A stretch of DNA of 64,000 nt from Acidobacteria bacterium Mor1 (GTDB taxonomy: Bacteria > Acidobacteriota > Polarisedimenticolia > Polarisedimenticolales > Polarisedimenticolaceae): positions 46,823-110,822 of the forward strand of contig CP011806.1 in assembly GCA_001664505.1 (NCBI GenBank), written 5' to 3'. How positions within the stretch are numbered: the first letter of the stretch is position 1; every line of letters starts with the position of its first letter. Below are positions 46,641 through 59,205 of this stretch, piece after piece. A program made the translations under genes and the position numbers. The notes under the pieces were generated by a model. It was given only the letters and a program-made list of their open reading frames with translations. It was not told where the DNA came from and ran no database searches.

Positions 46641-47096
46641 CTATTCGGTGGTGACCGGCTCGGCATCCTTGCCGGCGTCGATCGCCGCCTTCAGCGTGTG
46701 CCAGGCAAGGGTCGCGCACTTGACCCGTACCGGGTAGTCGCGGACTCCGGCCAGCACCTGCAGCTTACCCAGGGCTTCCGCCTCGGTGGCGTCGTCGCTG
46801 GTCATCAGGGCGTGGAACTCGTCGAACATCCGCTGTACTTCGACGATAGTCTTGCCCCGCAGCGCCTCGGTCATCAGCGAGGCCGACGCGGTGGAGATGG
46901 CGCAGCCGACTCCGTCGAAGGTGAGGTTGCGCACGACACCGTCCTGGACGTCGACGTAGACCGTGACCTTGTCGCCGCAAAGGGGATTGTGACCGTTGGC
47001 CTTGCGGCAGGATTCGCCGTCCAGTTCACCCCGGTTCCGCGGTTGGCGGCTGTGGTCGAGGATGACCTCCTGGTACAGCTCGCGAAGGTCGCTCAT
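46641..47096 (-). CDS. sufU: SufU, zinc-dependent sulfurtransferase partner of SufS
   Basis: A 151-aa protein with the SufU ligand set: Cys40 and Asp42 (NPLCGDK), Cys65 (GVGCAIS) and Cys127 (VKCATL). It binds zinc and accepts persulfide sulfur from the SufS cysteine for delivery to SufBCD. It starts 4 nt inside the end of sufS, which supports stoichiometric expression. Confidence 0.93.
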   Translation of the reverse strand: MSDLRELYQEVILDHSRQPRNRGELDGESCRKANGHNPLCGDKVTVYVDVQDGVVRNLTFDGVGCAISTASASLMTEALRGKTIVEVQRMFDEFHALMTSDDATEAEALGKLQVLAGVRDYPVRVKCATLAWHTLKAAIDAGKDAEPVTTE

Positions 47097-48343
47097 AGAC
47101 GGAATACCTCTCGTACCTTGTGGAGCGCCTCGGCCAGGCGCTTGACGTCATCCAGCGTGTTGTACATCGCGAGCGACGCGCGGCAGGTAGACGAAACGCC
47201 GAAGCGGTCCATCACCGGCTGGGCGCAGTGGTGGCCCACCCGGATCGCCACCGCCTCGCTGTCGACGATGGTGCCCACGTCGTGCGAGTGAATATCGCCG
47301 AGGGTGAACGAGATCACCGAGGCCTTGTTGCGTGCCGTTCCGATCAGCTGCACGTCGGGCACCTGGCGCAGAACGTCGGTGGCGTCCTGCAGCAACCGGC
47401 TCTCGTAGGGCTCGATGCGGTCGAAGCCCAGGTCCATCAGGTAGCGGGCGGCGACCCCCATGCCCACTGCGGCCTCGATGCAGGGCGTGCCCGCCTCGAA
47501 GCGGTAGGGGAGTTCGTTGTAGGTCGTCTTCTCGAAGGTCACCGAGAGGATCATGTCCCCGCCGCCCTGGTAGGGGGGCAGGGCTTCGAGCCGGGCCTGC
47601 TTGCCGTAGAGCACGCCGATGCCGCTGGGGCCGAACATCTTGTGGGACGAGATCGTGTAGAAGTCGGCGTCGAGATCCTGCACGTCGATCGGCATGTGGG
47701 CCGCAGCCTGGGCTCCGTCAACCAGAGTCAGGCTGCCGGCCGCCCGGGCGAGGGCGATCATCTCCTTGACCGGATTGACCGTGCCGAGAGCGTTGGAGAT
47801 GTGGGACATGGCCACGATACGGGTCCGCGGCGAAAGCAGCCTGCGGTACTCGTCGAGATCCACCTCGCCGCTGTCGTCGATCCGCGCGACCTGGAGCTTT
47901 GCGCCGGTCCGTTCGCAGAGCATCTGCCAGGGCACGATGTTCGAGTGATGCTCGAGGCCGCTGATCAGCACCTCGTCGCCCGGCCCCATGCTGCCGGTCA
48001 TCCCCTGGGCCACCAGGTTGATCCCCTCGGTGGTGCCGCGGACGAAGACGATCTCCTTACGGTCGGCGGCGCCGAGGAAATCCCGCATGGTGTCCCGGGC
48101 GCCCTCGTAGGCCTCGGTGGCCCGGACGCTCAGGGCGTGCACGCCCCGGTGCACGTTGGAGTAGCTGTGGCAGTAGAAGTTGCTGACGGCGTCGATCACC
48201 GCCCGCGGCTTCTGGGTCGAGGCGGCATTGTCCAGATAGACCAGCGGCTTCCCGTGGATCGTCTCCGACAGGAGCGGAAAGTCACTCCGAACCTCGAGCG
48301 CGTCGAAGGCGGGTCCGGCCGATCGGGTCATCGAGGTATCCAT
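47093..48343 (-). CDS. sufS: SufS cysteine desulfurase
   Basis: A 416-aa class V aminotransferase-fold enzyme. The PLP lysine is in SSHKMFGPSG, and the persulfide-forming cysteine is Cys373 (VGHHCAQP). It removes sulfur from L-cysteine for Fe-S cluster assembly. The presence of SufU rather than SufE indicates the Bacillus-type transfer route. It lies 8 nt after sufD. Confidence 0.95.
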   Translation of the reverse strand: MDTSMTRSAGPAFDALEVRSDFPLLSETIHGKPLVYLDNAASTQKPRAVIDAVSNFYCHSYSNVHRGVHALSVRATEAYEGARDTMRDFLGAADRKEIVFVRGTTEGINLVAQGMTGSMGPGDEVLISGLEHHSNIVPWQMLCERTGAKLQVARIDDSGEVDLDEYRRLLSPRTRIVAMSHISNALGTVNPVKEMIALARAAGSLTLVDGAQAAAHMPIDVQDLDADFYTISSHKMFGPSGIGVLYGKQARLEALPPYQGGGDMILSVTFEKTTYNELPYRFEAGTPCIEAAVGMGVAARYLMDLGFDRIEPYESRLLQDATDVLRQVPDVQLIGTARNKASVISFTLGDIHSHDVGTIVDSEAVAIRVGHHCAQPVMDRFGVSSTCRASLAMYNTLDDVKRLAEALHKVREVFRL

Positions 48344-48351
48344 CCAGAGCC

Positions 48352-49649
48352 TCAGGCGGTCCGGATCGCGTCGAGGCGCCGTCCGAACGCCTCCTCGAGG
48401 AATTGCCGCACCGACTCCACCGGAACCTGATCGAGCAGTTCCGCTGCGAAGCCGCGCACCAGCATGTTACGGGCCTCGGTACTTCCGATCCCGCGGCTCT
48501 GCAGATAGAACATCGCCTCCGCATCCAGCTCGCCGATGGTGGCGCCGTGGGTGCACTTGACGTCGTCGGCGTAGATCTCGAGCTGCGGCCGGGTGTGGAC
48601 CAGCGCTCCCTCGGTCATCAACAGGTTCGGGTTCGACTGCTTGGCGTCGGTCTTCTGGGCGTCGAGCTGCACGCGGATGCGTCCGTTGAACACCGCCCGG
48701 GCGTTGTCGGCCAGGATGCCCTTGTAGACCTCGCGGCTGTCGCCGTGGGGCATGGCGTGGTCGAGCGTGGTGTGGTTGTCCACGTGCTGCTTGTCCGAGA
48801 CCAGGTACAGGCAGTTGAGCAGGCAGTTGGAGCCCTCGCCGTTGAGCTTCGCGGTGGAATCAACCCGGGCCAGCTTGGCCCCGAAGTCGAAGGCGTGGCA
48901 GGCGTAGCGGCCGCTGCGCGCCACGGTAGCGTGGGCGTTGCCCACGTGGTGGGCGTTGCCGCTCTCGAACTGCAGGCGAACGTGTTCGAGGCCGGCGTTG
49001 TCGGCGACATCGATCTCGCAGACCGAACAGGTCAGCCCTTCGGCGCCCTCGGCGCCGAAGAAGCTCTCGACCAGCTTGAGTTCGGCCTGAGCGTCGACCT
49101 GCACCAGCAAGCGGGGGAAGCTGGCGGCCGGCTGTTCGGTGCGCGATGCCAGATGCAGGACATGGATCGGTTCGGCCGCCGCGCCATGGGCGCGGATGAC
49201 CGTGGCATCGTCGAACAGCGCCGTGTTGAGCGCCGCGAAGGGCTGGCTCTCCGGAGCGACCCGGCGGGCAAGCAGCGACTCGGTCAACTGCGCCTGCTGA
49301 TCCCGCGCCTGAGCCAGGGTTCCGACCCACACGCCGTCCCGGTCCCCGAGTCCGGTGGACAGTTCGGTATCGAGGCGTCCGTCAACGAAGACCAGCCGGC
49401 GGGCGCAGAAATCCAGAGCCGGGTGTCCGGCGAAGGCCGCCGAACCGCCGGCAGGAGCCGGTGCGTAGTCGGTCGATGCGATGGCGGCGACGCTGGTGTT
49501 TTTCCACTCTTCGAGCTTGGAGCTGGGAAAGCCCACCGACTCGAAACGGTCACGGGCCTGCTGCCGGAGGTCGCGGAGCCAGGCCGGCTCCTCCTCGCGA
49601 CGGCCGCCGAAGGCGGTCAGCAGACCGGGAAGCTGCTGGGTGCTCTCCA

Positions 49650-49650
<1 letters not shown>
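48352..49650 (-). CDS. sufD: SufD, Fe-S scaffold complex subunit
   Basis: A 432-aa SufB/SufD-family beta-helix protein. The C-terminal region shows the conserved pattern FNGRIRVQLDAQKTDAKQSN and the sequence CTHGATIGELDAEAMFYLQSR. It lacks the extended Cys set of SufB and forms the SufBC2D complex. It overlaps sufC by one base (TGATG). Confidence 0.93.
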
Positions 49651-50411
<761 letters not shown>

Positions 50412-50451
50412 GTTCTGAATGTCCTTTCGTGCGCGTCGGCGGCTCGGGCCG

Positions 50452-51903
<1,452 letters not shown>

Positions 51904-51951
51904 CTTTGTCCTTGCTGCGCGCCCGACGCGGGCTCGCGGTTCATCGTCGAC

Positions 51952-52419
51952 TCAGGGTGTACTCGGCTCGGCGGGGGAGTCGCCGCCCAGGTTCAGCAGC
52001 GCCGGCTCGGGAGCGGTGGCTCCGACGAGTTCCGACACCGCGACCCCCTGGAGGGCGCCTTCGACCGCGTCGTTGATGCGTTTCCAGTTCTGACTGGTCA
52101 GGCAGGTGGCTTCCTGGTCGCAGTGACCGGGGTTGCCGACGCACTCGACCAGGGCGATCGGGCCCTCGATGGCCCGGACCACGTCGGCCACGGACATGCC
52201 GTCGAGGGAGCGGGCGAGACCGTAGCCCCCCTTGGCGCCCCGGTTGGAGATCAGGAGTCCGGACCGGGCCAGCGCCTTGAGGATCTTGCTGGCCATGGGG
52301 AGGGACACTCCGGCCCACGAGGAGACATCCCGGGCCGAGTGCACGCCTTCGGTTCCCCGCCGGTGCAGGTGGGCCAGAATCAGCAGCGCATAGTCGGTTT
52401 CGCGGGTAATCCGGATCAC
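51952..52419 (-). CDS. Rrf2-family Fe-S-sensing regulator of the SUF operon
   Basis: A 155-aa winged-helix repressor. The recognition region is SLPMASKILKALARSGL, followed by the GAKGGYGLAR wing. Three cysteines, Cys93, Cys100 and Cys106, match the IscR/SufR cluster-binding arrangement. It should sense Fe-S status and repress the operon when clusters are plentiful. GTG at 52419 is chosen because GGAGGA lies 6 nt upstream and the family begins close to IRITRETDYAL; an ATG at 52437 is also in frame. Confidence 0.9.
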   Translation of the reverse strand: MIRITRETDYALLILAHLHRRGTEGVHSARDVSSWAGVSLPMASKILKALARSGLLISNRGAKGGYGLARSLDGMSVADVVRAIEGPIALVECVGNPGHCDQEATCLTSQNWKRINDAVEGALQGVAVSELVGATAPEPALLNLGGDSPAEPSTP

Positions 52420-52439
52420 GCCTGTCCTCCAGGCCACAA

Positions 52440-52634: not shown

Positions 52635-53570
52635 ATGCAGCACCGCTCCAAAGTCGTCCTCCTCGGCCCTCAACGGTTCAAGCCGACCCTGTCGTCTGCC
52701 CTGCGCAGCCTCGACATCGAGGGGTCTCTGGCGGTGATCACCGCCGGCTGGCAGGAGCGGGAGGGGGAGGTCGAGGAACTCGACGAACACGTCGGCTTCG
52801 AGAGCACCGATCTGCGGCTCTACGAGCGCTTCGACCGGGTCATGGCCGAGGACCCCGAACTGTTCGAGGCGCTCCGGCGGCGGCAAGATCGACTGCAGCA
52901 ACTTCAGGAGCTCTATCGGGTGCGGCTGTCCCACACCCTGGAAGCCGCCCGCGAGTTGATGCGCCGGGACGCTCCGGCCGAGTTGCTCCCTGCGGAACGC
53001 CGCTCGGCGATCCGTGCGCTACGCACCCTCGACAGCGGACACCTGAGGCGCGTCGCTGCGATCCATCAGGCCTTCGAGGAGAACTGGAAGCCTGGCGAAC
53101 GGCCGGCAGTGGTGCGTGAACGGGAAGAGATCGCCGCGGTGATCGACGGCTGTGCCGGGATCGCGGTGGCCGGCGGGCACGTCGCCGTGCTGCTCAATCG
53201 CATGCGGTTGTTCGGAATCGGCGAGATGGTCGGCGATCGGCCGGTGGTGGCCTGGTCCGCCGGAGCGATGGCTCTGAGTGAGCGGGTCGTGCTGTTCCAT
53301 GACAATCCGCCCCAGGGCCGAGGCAACGCCGAGGTGATCGAGAGTGGGCTCGGACTTTTCCGCGGTGTGTTGCCCTTGCCTCACGCAGGGCGGCGGCTGG
53401 ATCTCGACGATCCGGTCCGGGTCGCGCTCTTCGCCCGCCGCTTCGCGCCGGCGTTCTGCCTGGCGCTGGATGACGAGGTGCGCCTCGACTGGGAGGACGA
53501 ACGCTTGATTCCGGTCCATGGGGTGCGGCGGCTGGATCGCCGCGGCCGGGTGCTCGGGGTCTCGGCGTGA
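52635..53570 (+). CDS. Peptidase S51-like protein (peptidase E/cyanophycinase family)
   Basis: A 311-aa protein. The first 140 residues are helical and unfamiliar. The C-terminal half follows the S51 pattern: IAVAGGHVAVLLNRM, nucleophile Ser208 in VAWSAGAMAL and a His250 in GLGLFRGVLPLPHAGRR. S51 enzymes include Asp-dipeptidase E and cyanophycinase, which hydrolyse unusual Asp-linked amides. The start at 52635 is the first ATG, without a good ribosome site. Its stop overlaps the next GTG start by 4 nt. The substrate is unknown. Confidence 0.75.
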   Translation: MQHRSKVVLLGPQRFKPTLSSALRSLDIEGSLAVITAGWQEREGEVEELDEHVGFESTDLRLYERFDRVMAEDPELFEALRRRQDRLQQLQELYRVRLSHTLEAARELMRRDAPAELLPAERRSAIRALRTLDSGHLRRVAAIHQAFEENWKPGERPAVVREREEIAAVIDGCAGIAVAGGHVAVLLNRMRLFGIGEMVGDRPVVAWSAGAMALSERVVLFHDNPPQGRGNAEVIESGLGLFRGVLPLPHAGRRLDLDDPVRVALFARRFAPAFCLALDDEVRLDWEDERLIPVHGVRRLDRRGRVLGVSA

Positions 53571-54724
53571 CCGAGATCAAGATGAAACCCGGCGGGCCGC
53601 TGGGCGAGCTGCTCGATCTTGAAACGATCGACGGCGCCGCCATCGATGCGTTCCTCACCGACCGCTGGTTCCCGCTGGTCGAGGAGAGTCAGGCGACCTT
53701 CGTCTACCGGGGGGAGGCGGACGAGGTCAACCTGCGGCACTGGATCTACGGCCTGCAGTCCTCCCAGCCTTTCACCCGGGTCGAGGGGACCGACCTCTGG
53801 TACCTGGTGATGGAGCTGCCGGACTGCTCCCGGGTCGAGTACAAGATCGAGCTGATCCGCGGCGACGGGATTCAATGGATCCGGGATCCGCTCAACGACC
53901 AACTGGCCCACGACCCGTTCGGGGCAAACTCGGTGGCCCACGGCAAGGGCTACGCCTTCCCGTCCTGGGCCGAGCACGACTCCGAAGCCCGTCCCGGGAC
54001 CCTCCAGGACGTGGTCTTCAACAGCAAGCGCCTCGGGGGGCCTCAGCACGTAAAGGTCTACCTGCCGGCCCGGTTCCGCAGCCGCCGGCGCTACCCGCTG
54101 ATCGTGGTCCACGACGGTCCGGACTACGTCCGCTTCGCGGCGCTCAAGATCGTGTTGGACAACCTGATCCACCGGCAGGAGATCCCGCCGGTGATCGCGG
54201 CCCTGACCCACTCCCACGATCGGCTCAAGTACTACGGGGCCCACGCCGACCACGCTCGCTACGTCGTCGACGAACTGGTGCCCCGGCTGGAAAAGGCGTA
54301 TCCGCTGGTCGACCGGCCGTCGGCCCGGGCGCTGATGGGCGCCAGTTTCGGCGCCGTGGCCTCGCTCCATACCGCCTGGAGCAATCCCGGATACTTCGGC
54401 AAGGTGCTGGTCCAGTCCGGATCCTTCGCCTTCTCCGATATCGGCAAGCATCGCCGGGGGCCGGCCTTCGACCCGGTTGTCGAGTGGATGAACGCCTTCC
54501 GGGCCGATCCGGGGCGCCCCACCGACCAGATCTTCGTCAGTTGCGGCACCTACGAGTCCCTGATCTACGAGAACCGCTCGGTGATCCCGCTGCTGCAGTC
54601 CACCGGGATGCAGGTGCGCTACGTCGAGGCCCGGGACGGCCACAACTGGGAGAACTGGCGGGACCGGCTGCGGGAGGGGCTCTCCTGGCTGTTTCCGGGG
54701 CCACTCTGGATGGTCTACGAGTAG
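53567..54724 (+). CDS. Esterase-like alpha/beta hydrolase (enterochelin-esterase type)
   Basis: A 385-aa protein. An N-terminal beta-sandwich (ATFVYRGEADEVNLRHWIYG) of the early-set/CBM48-like kind precedes an alpha/beta hydrolase with nucleophile Ser260 (LMGASFGAVASL) and His359 (DGHNWENW). This matches the Fes/putative-esterase group that cleaves siderophore or acyl esters and some amides. Start GTG 53567 overlaps the upstream stop. No signal peptide, so it acts in the cytoplasm. Confidence 0.85.
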   Translation: MTEIKMKPGGPLGELLDLETIDGAAIDAFLTDRWFPLVEESQATFVYRGEADEVNLRHWIYGLQSSQPFTRVEGTDLWYLVMELPDCSRVEYKIELIRGDGIQWIRDPLNDQLAHDPFGANSVAHGKGYAFPSWAEHDSEARPGTLQDVVFNSKRLGGPQHVKVYLPARFRSRRRYPLIVVHDGPDYVRFAALKIVLDNLIHRQEIPPVIAALTHSHDRLKYYGAHADHARYVVDELVPRLEKAYPLVDRPSARALMGASFGAVASLHTAWSNPGYFGKVLVQSGSFAFSDIGKHRRGPAFDPVVEWMNAFRADPGRPTDQIFVSCGTYESLIYENRSVIPLLQSTGMQVRYVEARDGHNWENWRDRLREGLSWLFPGPLWMVYE

Positions 54725-54790
54725 AGAGCGGGGTACACTTCCCGCTTGGCGCGGGGCCCGTTACGCCACCGCACCCACGGGGGAAGTTCC

Positions 54791-56077
54791 ATGGCCGACA
54801 TCACTCGCCGCATCGGGCTCAGTCTCGGTGCAGACATCTGCTGGCCGATCTGCTTCGAGGAGATCGTCCGCAAACTCGATCCCAAGCTCGATCTGAACGG
54901 CGACAAGGTGCGCTTCGAAGTCGAGCGGCTCTCGATCGAGCCCTTCGACCTCAAGCAGTCGTGTCGCTACGACGTGGTCATCGACCGCTTGACCCACTGG
55001 TACCACACCAGTCGCGAGTGGATCAAAAAGTCGGTGATCATGGACGGCCTCTACGTCTTCAACAATCCGTGGTCGGTGCAGTCGATGGAAAAGTGCACCA
55101 GCTACTGCGCGATGCTGCACCTTGGCATGAAGGTGCCCGAGACCTGGCTGGTGCCGCCGAAAGAGTACGAGCCCTCGGCGGACCTCGAGCCGACGCTCAA
55201 TCGCTACGCCAAGCTGTTCGATATCGGTGAGATCGGAGAGAAGGTCGGCTACCCGCTGTTCATGAAGCCCTACGACGGCGGCGCCTGGGTCGGCGTCAGC
55301 CGCGCCGCCGATGCGGCCAAGCTGCGCGAGGCCTACGAGGAGAGCGGTACCCGGGTCATGCACCTGCAGCAGTCGGTGGAGAACTACGATCTGTTCGTCC
55401 GCTGCATCGGTGTCGGGCCCCAGCTCCGCATCGTGCGCTACGACCCCGACTCGCCGCTTCACGACCGCTACAAGGTCGACTTCGATATCGTCGACGAGAA
55501 AGACGCGGAGCTGCTGCGCGACATCACCCTGACGATCAACGCCTTCTTCGGCTGGGACTTCAACTCCTGCGAGATGCTGCGCCGGGAAGGGGAGTACTAC
55601 CCGATCGACTTCGCCAACCCATGTCCCGACTCCCAGGTCACGTCGCTGCACTACCACTTCCCCTGGGTGCTCAAGTCGAAGATTCGCTGGGCCATGTTCT
55701 GCGCCGCCTCCGAGCGGCAGATGCAGCCGAACCTCGACTGGTCTCCGTTCTACGCGGTGGCGGCCAAGGAGCTTCCTTACCGGGAGCGCATGCGGGAATA
55801 CGGCAAGATCGCCCTGGAGCGGATGGATGCCGCCCGCTTCGAGGACTTCTGCGGCGAGCATCTCGCCGATCTGGACGAAGTGGTCTACGACTTCTTCTCG
55901 ACCGATACCGCCCGGGATGCGGTGCGGCAGAAGGTCCAGGCGCTGTTCCCCGAGCACGAGGTCGACGAGTTCACCGAGCACTTCTGGGGCTTGATCCAGT
56001 TCTGGCGCAAGACCGAGGCGGATCGCATGGGCAAAGGGGATGCGGGCTCCGAGGCCAAGGACGGAGCCGGGGCGTGA
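54791..56077 (+). CDS. ATP-grasp ligase of unknown specificity
   Basis: A 428-aa protein. It has an N-terminal pre-ATP-grasp region with LGADICWPICFEE, then the fold's elements: PLFMKPYDGGAWVGVSR (nucleotide-binding lysine and loop), the clamp region QQSVENYDLFVR, and the metal ligands EMLRREGEYYPIDFANPCPD. ATP-grasp ligases activate a carboxylate as acyl phosphate and join it to an amine or thiol. Neither substrate can be read. GGGGGAAG precedes the ATG. It follows the esterase by 66 nt and overlaps the next gene by 4 nt. Confidence 0.85.
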   Translation: MADITRRIGLSLGADICWPICFEEIVRKLDPKLDLNGDKVRFEVERLSIEPFDLKQSCRYDVVIDRLTHWYHTSREWIKKSVIMDGLYVFNNPWSVQSMEKCTSYCAMLHLGMKVPETWLVPPKEYEPSADLEPTLNRYAKLFDIGEIGEKVGYPLFMKPYDGGAWVGVSRAADAAKLREAYEESGTRVMHLQQSVENYDLFVRCIGVGPQLRIVRYDPDSPLHDRYKVDFDIVDEKDAELLRDITLTINAFFGWDFNSCEMLRREGEYYPIDFANPCPDSQVTSLHYHFPWVLKSKIRWAMFCAASERQMQPNLDWSPFYAVAAKELPYRERMREYGKIALERMDAARFEDFCGEHLADLDEVVYDFFSTDTARDAVRQKVQALFPEHEVDEFTEHFWGLIQFWRKTEADRMGKGDAGSEAKDGAGA

Positions 56078-59000
56078 CCCGAGTGCGTTTGTCGGCGCTG
56101 CTGCTGTGCCTGGTGGCTGCGATCACCGCGGCGCCGGCTCAACAACAGGCGGCCGCCGACGAGTGGTTGGTCGTGGACTACCGCCGTCTGGTGGACCTGC
56201 GCCAGCTGACGCACTCCGGCGAGCCGATGGAGGTGGTGCTCAACCGCCTCGAAGGTCGGCCGCTGCCCGGTGCCGGGGCGAATCCCCAGGACCGCACCGA
56301 TCACACGCTAATCGAGCCGATTCTCGAGACCTACGGCTTTCTGCTGATCGATGCCCTCGACGCGTTGACGCCGGCGGCTCCCCGGGTAGAGCTCGGTTCC
56401 CTGTGGCTGCCCGGTGAGGCGCAACCCGCCTGGGTCGAGCTGTTGCGCAGCCGCCGCTACATCGTGGAGAGTGACGGCAAGGGTGGCCTGCGCCTGATTC
56501 TGCCCTATGCGGGCGGGCGGGGCAGCGCCGAGGCGGCTCGAGGTGCCCTGGCCGCCGCCTGGCCCGTGGTGCGTCACGCCGTCGCCGCCGAGCAGCGCAG
56601 GCTGCGCAAGGGGGATGCGCTCCCGGAGCTGGAGCTGCAGGCCTTTGCCTATTTTCACGACACCGCCAACGCCACCTTCCGGGTCGGGAGCATTCCCCAC
56701 ACCGAGACGGTGAGCGACACCGGACGCCGGGGCGGCACGCCGCTCGACGCCCGGGTGTTCCTGCGTTTCCTCGAGAGTGGTTGGCGGCTCGAGGGGGCGC
56801 GGCTGTCCGAGGACGGCACCCTCAGCCTGCTCGGATCCGAGAGCGACGAGAGCGCGACGATCCTGGGCCAGCCGCTGACCCTCGCCGACCTGGCGGTGGC
56901 TCAGCGCGCCGTGTTCCACGGCGGGCTGGCCGAGCCCTACATGAGCCTCGATCGCTCCCAGAGTCCCCAGACCGCCTGGGTCAACTACGGCGGCCGCCTG
57001 CGGGACACCCGGATCGGCTGGGTCAGCCTGCTCTGCGACATCCGCTTCAAGACCTTCAGTCAGGGGCTCGGGCTCTACGAGGACACCGACCTGCGCGACT
57101 CGATCCGGGCGCGGGTCCCCGGGTTCCGCACCCACCTCGAACGCTTTGCCGCCGACGAGCGTGCCTCCGACGTCAACAGCCAGCAGACCCGCCTCTGGTT
57201 CTATCCGGACAAGGTCGATCTGACGATCTCGCCTCAGGGCGACGTGCTGGTGCTGCGCAACGTGCGGATGAGTGCGGCGTCGGAGCGAGTCGCCGAGGCG
57301 ACCCAGGCGGGCGAGCAGACTCAGGCCCCCTGGACGCTCCAGACCGTCGCCGACGTCGACGCCCGTTACGACGCGCTGGCCGGGCTGTTCCCCGAGCTCC
57401 ACGACCTGGACCGCGCCGTCAGCCTGCTGGCGCTGTTCACCTGGCTCAAGCAGCTTTCCGACGCCGGGCGCACGATTCCTGATGTCGACGCGCTGCTCGA
57501 CGTCGAGTTGCCGGCGGCTCCGACCCCCAGGGAGTTTCCGCGCTTGCTGGCCTTCAACGCCCTGCCGGCAGCGGGCTCGCAGAACCCCGTCGAGGTGTTC
57601 GACCGGGTCGAGATCGCCGAGGCGTTGGAGCGGTTGCGCCCGTCGTACGGCCGCCTCGATCCTGCTCAGCGATTGGAGCGGGCCCTGGATGGCCTCGATG
57701 CCTCGGTGCCGCAACACTCGACATTCATGAGTGAGGTGCGGGAAGCGGATCTTCAGGGCGCAGGCCCGGGTATCGTCGATCTACTGGCCCACCGTGCCGA
57801 ACGGCTGCGCATGCACGACACGGTGCTCAAGACCTTGCCCGAGGAACAGCGCCGTGGACTGGTCGAGCGCCAGCGCGGCGGTGAGGCCATGCGGGTTTTC
57901 AGCGTCGGGATCGGCGGAATCGATCTGGGCATGGGTCGGGTGATGCGGCGAGCCTCGGGGCGCAGTAGCGGCCTCGGTTGGGGAGGTGCCGCGGCAGGAG
58001 CCGCCCCTTCCGCCCCGGTAGTGACTCGGCGCGCCGCACCGAAGGCTCCTCCCGTCGACGGCTCCGCAGGTTCCGGGGCGGACTCCACCGGTTTGCCCCC
58101 GGGGATCGCCATGCGGCCTCATGCCGAGGGCTCGCCCGAAGGGGTTGCGGTGCTGTTCCCCGACGCTTCCGAAGGGCGGGCTCGCGAACTCTGGCGCAAG
58201 CCCGACGGCACCGTCGATACGGTTCAGCGCTGGGAAGGGGAGCGCCTGTTGCGCTACCGCTTCGACGTGCGCAAGTCGGTGCTGCGGGTGATCCCTCAGC
58301 CGGTTCCCGGTCCGCTGGACCTGGCCGAGGTGCCGCTTCTTCCGCGAAGCGTACCCCCGGCGACGGTGTTGATGACGCTGTTGCCGCCGGACCAACCGGA
58401 TGCCCAGCCGACCGAAGACCTTCCGCTGCGTCTGGTGGCCCAGGTCAACGGCGAGGTGGTCGATCGCTTCGGCAGCTACCCCCGCCGCATCCTCGAACGT
58501 GCGGTCCTCGGGCCGGCGGCGCTTCCGCCGGGCGCTCGGGCGCTTCCCGGCTTGAACCCGTTGCCCACGACCCTCGGGCAGGCGGATCACATGCTGATCC
58601 GCTTGCAGCCGGAGCAACGCTATGCCCCGTGGATCGGCGATCGCCCCGGGCGTGCCGGCGAGGAGAACCCGCTGCAGCTGGCGCGGGGTCTGCGGGACTG
58701 GTGGCGTGACGAGGGGCCGACGGTGGCGCTCTTCCGTGACGACGCTTCTCTGGATCGCTGGGCCGGTGCGCCGCGCCCGACCTCGAAGGCGCTCTTGGTC
58801 CTGCCGGAAGATGGCTTCGCAGCACCGTTCTCCGATCTTCGCGCGGAGATCGCCGACGCGTGGCCCGGACCCGTGGCGTCGACGCTCCCCAAGAAGCTGC
58901 CGGACACGGTGGTGCTGGTCAGCGCCGAAGATCCCGGCGTCGTTGCCGGACGGCTGGCCCGCATGTCGGCTCGCCCGGAGTTGAAGGGCAAGTTGCTCGC

Positions 59001-59205
59001 CGGCTGGTCGCTGCTCGGCCCGCTGCGGGAGGATCTGCCGGCGCGGCTGCTCGGTTCGGGTATCGCCGGTTTCGGTCTGGCCAGCGGCAACGCCGGCGAC
59101 CTGCGCCGGGCGCCGGAGCTCCTGAGCACGTTCGGCGATGCGCTGCCCAAGAAAGGGGAGCGCCGGGTCGAGGCCTACCCCGGCCCCTTCGTCTGGATCT
59201 ACTGA
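56074..59205 (+). CDS. Large exported protein of unknown function
   Basis: A 1043-aa protein starting at GTG 56074, which overlaps the ATP-grasp stop. The signal peptide is RLSALLLCLVAAITAAPAQQ. The N-terminal region (about 20-420) is mixed alpha/beta, including the segment SPQTAWVNYGGRLRDTRIGW. A middle helical part and a Pro/Ala/Gly-rich linker near 650-690 follow, then a C-terminal alpha/beta domain (ALLVLPEDGFAAPFSDLRAE, IAGFGLASGNAGDLRRAPEL). I do not recognise any of these as a named family. Translational coupling ties it to the ATP-grasp gene. Confidence 0.75.
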   Translation: MTRVRLSALLLCLVAAITAAPAQQQAAADEWLVVDYRRLVDLRQLTHSGEPMEVVLNRLEGRPLPGAGANPQDRTDHTLIEPILETYGFLLIDALDALTPAAPRVELGSLWLPGEAQPAWVELLRSRRYIVESDGKGGLRLILPYAGGRGSAEAARGALAAAWPVVRHAVAAEQRRLRKGDALPELELQAFAYFHDTANATFRVGSIPHTETVSDTGRRGGTPLDARVFLRFLESGWRLEGARLSEDGTLSLLGSESDESATILGQPLTLADLAVAQRAVFHGGLAEPYMSLDRSQSPQTAWVNYGGRLRDTRIGWVSLLCDIRFKTFSQGLGLYEDTDLRDSIRARVPGFRTHLERFAADERASDVNSQQTRLWFYPDKVDLTISPQGDVLVLRNVRMSAASERVAEATQAGEQTQAPWTLQTVADVDARYDALAGLFPELHDLDRAVSLLALFTWLKQLSDAGRTIPDVDALLDVELPAAPTPREFPRLLAFNALPAAGSQNPVEVFDRVEIAEALERLRPSYGRLDPAQRLERALDGLDASVPQHSTFMSEVREADLQGAGPGIVDLLAHRAERLRMHDTVLKTLPEEQRRGLVERQRGGEAMRVFSVGIGGIDLGMGRVMRRASGRSSGLGWGGAAAGAAPSAPVVTRRAAPKAPPVDGSAGSGADSTGLPPGIAMRPHAEGSPEGVAVLFPDASEGRARELWRKPDGTVDTVQRWEGERLLRYRFDVRKSVLRVIPQPVPGPLDLAEVPLLPRSVPPATVLMTLLPPDQPDAQPTEDLPLRLVAQVNGEVVDRFGSYPRRILERAVLGPAALPPGARALPGLNPLPTTLGQADHMLIRLQPEQRYAPWIGDRPGRAGEENPLQLARGLRDWWRDEGPTVALFRDDASLDRWAGAPRPTSKALLVLPEDGFAAPFSDLRAEIADAWPGPVASTLPKKLPDTVVLVSAEDPGVVAGRLARMSARPELKGKLLAGWSLLGPLREDLPARLLGSGIAGFGLASGNAGDLRRAPELLSTFGDALPKKGERRVEAYPGPFVWIY

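Follow-up and report, generated by a model that had tools for sequence, protein, structure and literature searches.

A ligase and hydrolase gene cassette of several bacterial phyla is co-inherited with one lineage of glycogen synthase

What would a bacterium make, and then take apart, with an ATP-grasp ligase, an esterase-like hydrolase and an S51-peptidase-like protein encoded in one tight run of genes? The question is raised by a locus of Acidobacteria bacterium Mor1, which lies in a stretch of 64,000 nucleotides (here called the window; contig CP011806.1, positions 46,823 to 110,822), a portion of a single-contig genome of 5.985 Mb. The locus and its upstream flank have the following features, in window coordinates; the three core genes are termed the cassette.

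46641-52437, minus strand: SUF Fe-S operon and divergently placed Rrf2 regulator, immediately upstream of the cassette
52635..53570, plus strand: S51/PepE-fold protein, 311 aa, core gene 1
53567..54724, plus strand: Fes-like alpha/beta hydrolase (PF00756; esterase C1), 385 aa, GTG start, core gene 2
54791..56077, plus strand: RimK/Ddl-like ATP-grasp ligase (C0), 428 aa, core gene 3
56074..59205, plus strand: large exported-type protein, 1043 aa, GTG start with an alternative start at 56083, non-core

These coordinates bear out a first-pass annotation that had described four co-oriented genes in two overlapping pairs: the S51-like and esterase genes share a 4-nt GTGA overlap, as do the ATP-grasp and 1043-aa genes, and 66 nt separate the esterase gene from the ATP-grasp gene.

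We scanned genome contigs, found 416 relatives of C0 and kept the best 80 for locus comparison, with genes called and clustered in-house at a 60-aa minimum. These best 80 of 416 are labelled Acidobacteriota, Myxococcota, Planctomycetota, Pseudomonadota and others, and the nearest cassette relatives are mostly Acidobacteriota MAGs, several of them labelled Thermoanaerobaculia; plasmid records yielded no C0 relatives. The S51, esterase and C0 genes are contiguous on one strand at 52 of the 81 loci (again from the best 80 of 416 relatives), and thus their arrangement is not due to chance. Overlap of the S51 and esterase genes recurs in 50 of 55 pairs (median spacing -4), and the median gap between esterase and C0 is 42 nt. 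The hydrolases are therefore common neighbours of the ATP-grasp gene in several phyla, and the gene order is not peculiar to this genome. Within the Acidobacteriota, close C0 relatives (62% identity or more) occur in five of 149 genomes, the window genome counted; the remaining matches there are paralogues at about 30%.

The 1043-aa protein has no Pfam family, and its N-terminus looks signal-peptide-like by eye. It accompanies the cassette at only four of 82 loci (the window, L002, L007 and L009), all with the SUF-Rrf2 flank, and is missing from the other 78, which rules it out as a core part; it is a lineage-specific local neighbour. Its proposed role as carrier, sensor or target of the system finds no support in this distribution, confined as it is to a single SUF-side synteny. 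At another locus, L015, the SUF genes stand downstream of the cassette.

Other gene families recur around the cassette far more widely:

C3, directly 3' of C0: 245-aa PF00756 hydrolase, same strand in 55 loci, median gap 2
C4: 407-aa second ATP-grasp, similar to amino-acid ligases, 53 loci
C5: ADP-glucose glycogen synthase GlgA, 32 loci
C6: fusion of a GCS2 ligase and two CBS domains, 19 loci
C7: FGase-type hydrolase, 9 loci
C9: AstE/AspA-type hydrolase, 8 loci
C10: GlgC, 7 loci
C32: GlgX-like debranching enzyme, 4 loci

The ligases that C4 resembles include BacD and the ATP-grasp domain of cyanophycin synthetase. In 11 loci the order GlgA-C4-S51-esterase-C0-C3 forms one contiguous run on a single strand. 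The 32 of 81 loci with GlgA compare with about 0.3 expected (a rough Poisson estimate that ignores ancestry); about 49 of the 81 have no GlgA nearby. The system is thus larger than the trio, adding C4, C3, the GCS2-CBS ligase, the AstE- and FGase-type hydrolases and GlgA. A set of lake Myxococcales loci (L034, L035, L037, L041, L048 and L054) carries C0-C3-C4 without an adjoining S51 or esterase gene, and has a divergent upstream gene (C11) for a putative CoA-transferase-like protein.

Co-inheritance was followed in 144 Myxococcota genomes, where C0 occurs in 47, strong S51-like matches in 48, the esterase in 48, C4 in 49 and GlgA in 95. Every one of the 47 C0 genomes has S51, esterase and GlgA, and 46 have C4; G202 is the sole genome among the 144 with S51 and esterase but without C0. 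The Fisher value for C0 with S51 is about 1e-37, a descriptive figure only, as it ignores shared ancestry. In 22 of the 47 genomes C0 and S51 are not found within 15 kb on one contig (a count inflated by contig breaks), so simple linkage does not explain their co-inheritance. Co-occurrence of the ATP-grasp gene with both hydrolases, which the first-pass annotation had set in advance as its test, accordingly holds throughout the Myxococcota carriers, and together with the contiguity described above it upholds that annotation's idea of a dedicated multi-gene system of an amide/ester ligase and hydrolases. What the annotation missed were the second ATP-grasp family and the glycogen synthase lineage, both visible only outside the window.

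That lineage emerges from a tree of 90 GlgAs (quick-search support, midpoint root, the C0-negative sample being Myxococcota only). We found 40 of the 41 cassette- or C4-linked GlgAs in one clade of 44 (SH-aLRT 100, branch 0.37), separate from other bacterial GlgA and spanning Acidobacteriota, Planctomycetota, Myxococcota and Pseudomonadota. The clade also takes in three unlinked GlgAs, all from cassette-positive genomes, and where a genome has two GlgAs the second copy lies outside it. Among C0-negative Myxococcota genomes, one of 35 GlgAs falls inside the clade; this lone genome, G253 (L141), may have lost C0 recently or be incompletely assembled. Four cassette carriers have a GlgA outside the clade, namely Nannocystis (L118), Paraliomyxa (L162), the Eisenbacteria genome of L033 (L163) and G237 (L122), and thus the cassette-linked lineage is not obligatory.

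What the core proteins might do was approached through their residues and predicted folds. C0 is weak by sequence and clear by predicted fold, with RimK as its top structural match (Z 19.2). Its residues K101, K159, E261, D273 and N276, of the ATP/metal-binding kind, are invariant in 46 of 46 members, and by modelled fold and these residues it is a predicted ATP-grasp amide/ester ligase. It shares the fold (Z 16-19) and the invariant ATP and metal residues with RimK, LysX, ArgX and Ddl, but at 10-18% identity, with conserved motifs of its own and an additional helical C-terminal extension of about 100 residues. Synapsin, ITPK1 and PurK follow RimK within about 2 Z units, and with the matches so nearly tied the fold does not point to a substrate.

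The esterase C1 matches PF00756 at 85.7 bits (cut-off 22) and 2b20 at E 1.7e-15, and S260, E330, D357 and H359 are invariant in 24 of 24 members, with either E330 or D357 as the triad acid. Its family, and a weak match of its N-terminal region to the Enterochelin_N domain, liken it to the enterochelin esterase Fes; it nevertheless falls under the NCBIfam Fes equivalog cut-off (110.9 versus 222 bits), and the recurrent cassette neighbours include no siderophore genes.

The S51-like protein is harder to read. Its sequence alone returned nothing useful against solved structures, its profile returned only weak matches there (PdxT-type and PepE), and its Pfam PF03575 score of 17.8 bits lies under the gathering score of 23.9. 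The predicted model (pLDDT 92.5) is clear in giving it the S51/PepE fold, with Z 16.6 to pseudo-CphB (3.1 A, 203 aligned), Z 16.4 to PepE and a Foldseek E of 1.8e-7, and displays a two-helix insert (a helical hairpin) at about residues 74-151. The window copy retains S208, D223 and H250, catalytic residues that we placed by the WSAGA motif and the secondary structure of the model, not by residue-level structural superposition. Of 46 members, 31 have Ser at position 208, in the elbow between strand and helix, while 8 have Cys there, 4 Ala and 3 Gly; His250, which follows strand 245-249, is kept in 22 and replaced in 24. A complete Ser-His dyad is left in just 21 of the 46, and cyanophycinase-like cutting, to which the first-pass annotation had likened S51-family activity, therefore cannot be the common job of the family. 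E43, R65, Y94, D133, H222, R254 and R269 are invariant, and a binding site that is kept while the catalytic residues vary is more in line with a sensor or subunit than with a cutting enzyme. As judged from these residues, the S51-fold protein is probably a peptidase-derived binding or scaffold subunit, and perhaps still hydrolytic in the lineages that retain Ser and His, that of the window included. Dyad loss is strongly patterned by lineage: in the GlgA-containing operons of L028, L030, L032, L039, L057, L061, L063, L068, L072 and L079 the dyad has given way to Ser, Ala or Gly with Asp, and in a Labilithrix-type group Cys is paired with Gln.

From the gene families we infer a pathway that makes and trims a conjugate of amino-acid or oligopeptide type coupled to an alpha-glucan, the latter supplied by the dedicated ADP-glucose glycogen synthase, a reading to which we give slightly less than an even chance. 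The S51-like protein, the esterase and C0 would form the core, in which ATP would activate a carboxylate that is then joined to an amine or hydroxyl. The C4 amino-acid-ligase-type ATP-grasps, with the GCS2-CBS ligase where present, would build the acyl or peptide part, presumably ahead of the RimK-like C0, which would couple it to the acceptor. The Fes-like C1 and the second esterase-fold protein, C3, could then remove or remodel the conjugate, and the AstE- and FGase-type hydrolases could trim it. In its boldest form, which we regard as unlikely, the proposal would be that in several bacterial phyla glycogen, or an alpha-glucan related to it, carries covalently bound amino acids or short peptides, with ATP-grasps adding these, Fes-like esterases removing them and the dedicated GlgA lineage making the substrate; if true, this would be a storage-polysaccharide modification of a kind with starch or glycogen phosphorylation.

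A possible objection to the conjugate is that the product may be a free small peptide or peptide polymer, serving as a nitrogen/carbon reserve or compatible solute and recycled by the hydrolases, and that glycogen genes are nearby through co-regulation with no covalent link to glucan. This main rival, which we think rather improbable, draws on the resemblance of C4 to amino-acid ligases, on the recurrence of GCS2 and AstE/FGase genes in the operon, and on the GlgC and GlgX genes beside some loci, as a storage island would have. The C4 and C6 ligase families moreover cover many substrates, which counts against the conjugate, as do the many loci with no GlgA close by, the carriers whose GlgA lies outside the clade and the lack of a close C3 in the window genome. 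Co-regulation alone, however, does not call for a GlgA lineage of its own that accompanies the cassette also where the two are unlinked, and the intact triads of two hydrolases of esterase fold suggest an ester, of which a pure peptide has none. The dedicated GlgA lineage and the two esterase-fold hydrolases thus favour a conjugate over a free peptide, not decisively.

Two further readings fare worse. The model of the first-pass annotation, in which an S51 peptidase cuts a cyanophycin-like amide polymer and the 1043-aa protein serves as carrier or target, can point to cyanophycinase and PepE as the nearest structures to the S51-like protein and to the intact Ser208, Asp223 and His250 of the window copy, and an ATP-grasp ligase with an S51-fold protein is indeed the pairing of the cyanophycin system (CphA, CphB). 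We hold it very doubtful nonetheless: the dyad that is incomplete in most of the family is never complete at the 12 loci where GlgA has operon orientation, the exported protein is generally absent, C0 has no match to cyanophycin synthetase at E below 1, no cyanophycin synthetase cluster is among the recurrent cassette neighbours, and the cassette brings esterases, ligases and GlgA that the cyanophycin system does not. The cyanophycin system itself we reject, given how poorly the S51 catalytic residues are conserved and that C0 does not match CphA. RimK attaches Glu to a protein of the ribosome, and with RimK as top match of C0 and the graspetide ligase PsnB also among the matches, the ATP-grasp could be imagined to act on a gene-encoded peptide or protein, as in graspetide-like modification or protein tagging. 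This too we find highly improbable, since the gaps in the core are too short for a precursor gene, no small ORF family recurs within the core among genes of at least 60 aa (a precursor could be encoded elsewhere), and the near-tie of structural matches already described lets the fold pick no substrate.

Neighbourhoods that combine ligases and hydrolases are known as a kind. Iyer, Abhiman, Burroughs and Aravind reportedly set out amidoligase-plus-peptidase gene neighbourhoods in 2009 (doi 10.1039/b917682a); like the cassette, these are conserved operons in which ligases of ATP-grasp or GCS type are paired with unrelated hydrolases, and the predicted outcome is the synthesis and trimming of peptide-like products. 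The cassette differs in the families of its ligases and hydrolases and in its dedicated glycogen synthase. One such neighbourhood is the Anbu operon, with ATP-grasp, Alpha-E and transglutaminase genes (PMC5666114). The literature that we searched, a coverage outside which Iyer et al. 2009 lies, holds no description of the cassette or of its glycogen synthase link, and the parts seen of a review of prokaryotic alpha-glucans (PMC11046441) mention neither ATP-grasp proteins nor esterases; the cassette with this link may therefore be new. It is a multi-ligase, multi-hydrolase system present in roughly one in three of the Myxococcota genomes sampled, as well as in Acidobacteriota, Planctomycetota and Pseudomonadota, and would account for a structurally conserved S51-fold family with repeated loss of catalytic residues. 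The tie to one GlgA lineage gives a concrete lead, toward amino acids that are bound to alpha-glucan or build up alongside it.

In the window genome itself, the parts of the Myxococcota operon are scattered over three places. The only full-length GT5 match lies at about 590.3-591.7 kb, 480 kb from the cassette (L089:9278-10729); it passes the TIGR02095 glgA cut-off (556.8 versus 328.45 bits), as expected of bacterial GlgA, and carries the KTGGL motif found in its clade. These and the other dispersed genes are, in genome coordinates:

588.96-590.18, 591.84-593.06 and 593.07-594.29 kb: three C4 genes flanking the GT5 gene
about 594.3-595.6 kb (G000:C1; L089:13306-14577): gene of the arginine-deiminase family, immediately following two ATP-grasp genes
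2.263 Mb: GCS2-CBS gene together with an AstE-type gene
5.41 Mb: second GCS2-CBS copy

There is no close C3, the best match (38% identity) being elsewhere in the genome. The arginine-deiminase family gene scores 313 bits against a curated arcA cut-off of 489, and its product possibly acts on a different substrate, to judge from that score; absent from the other loci compared, it was left out of the proposed system. The two GCS2-CBS fusions are found at L098 and L099, and the one that is not paired with the AstE-type gene ends a gene run of proteins that, by eye, resemble those of cobalamin and sulfur assimilation.
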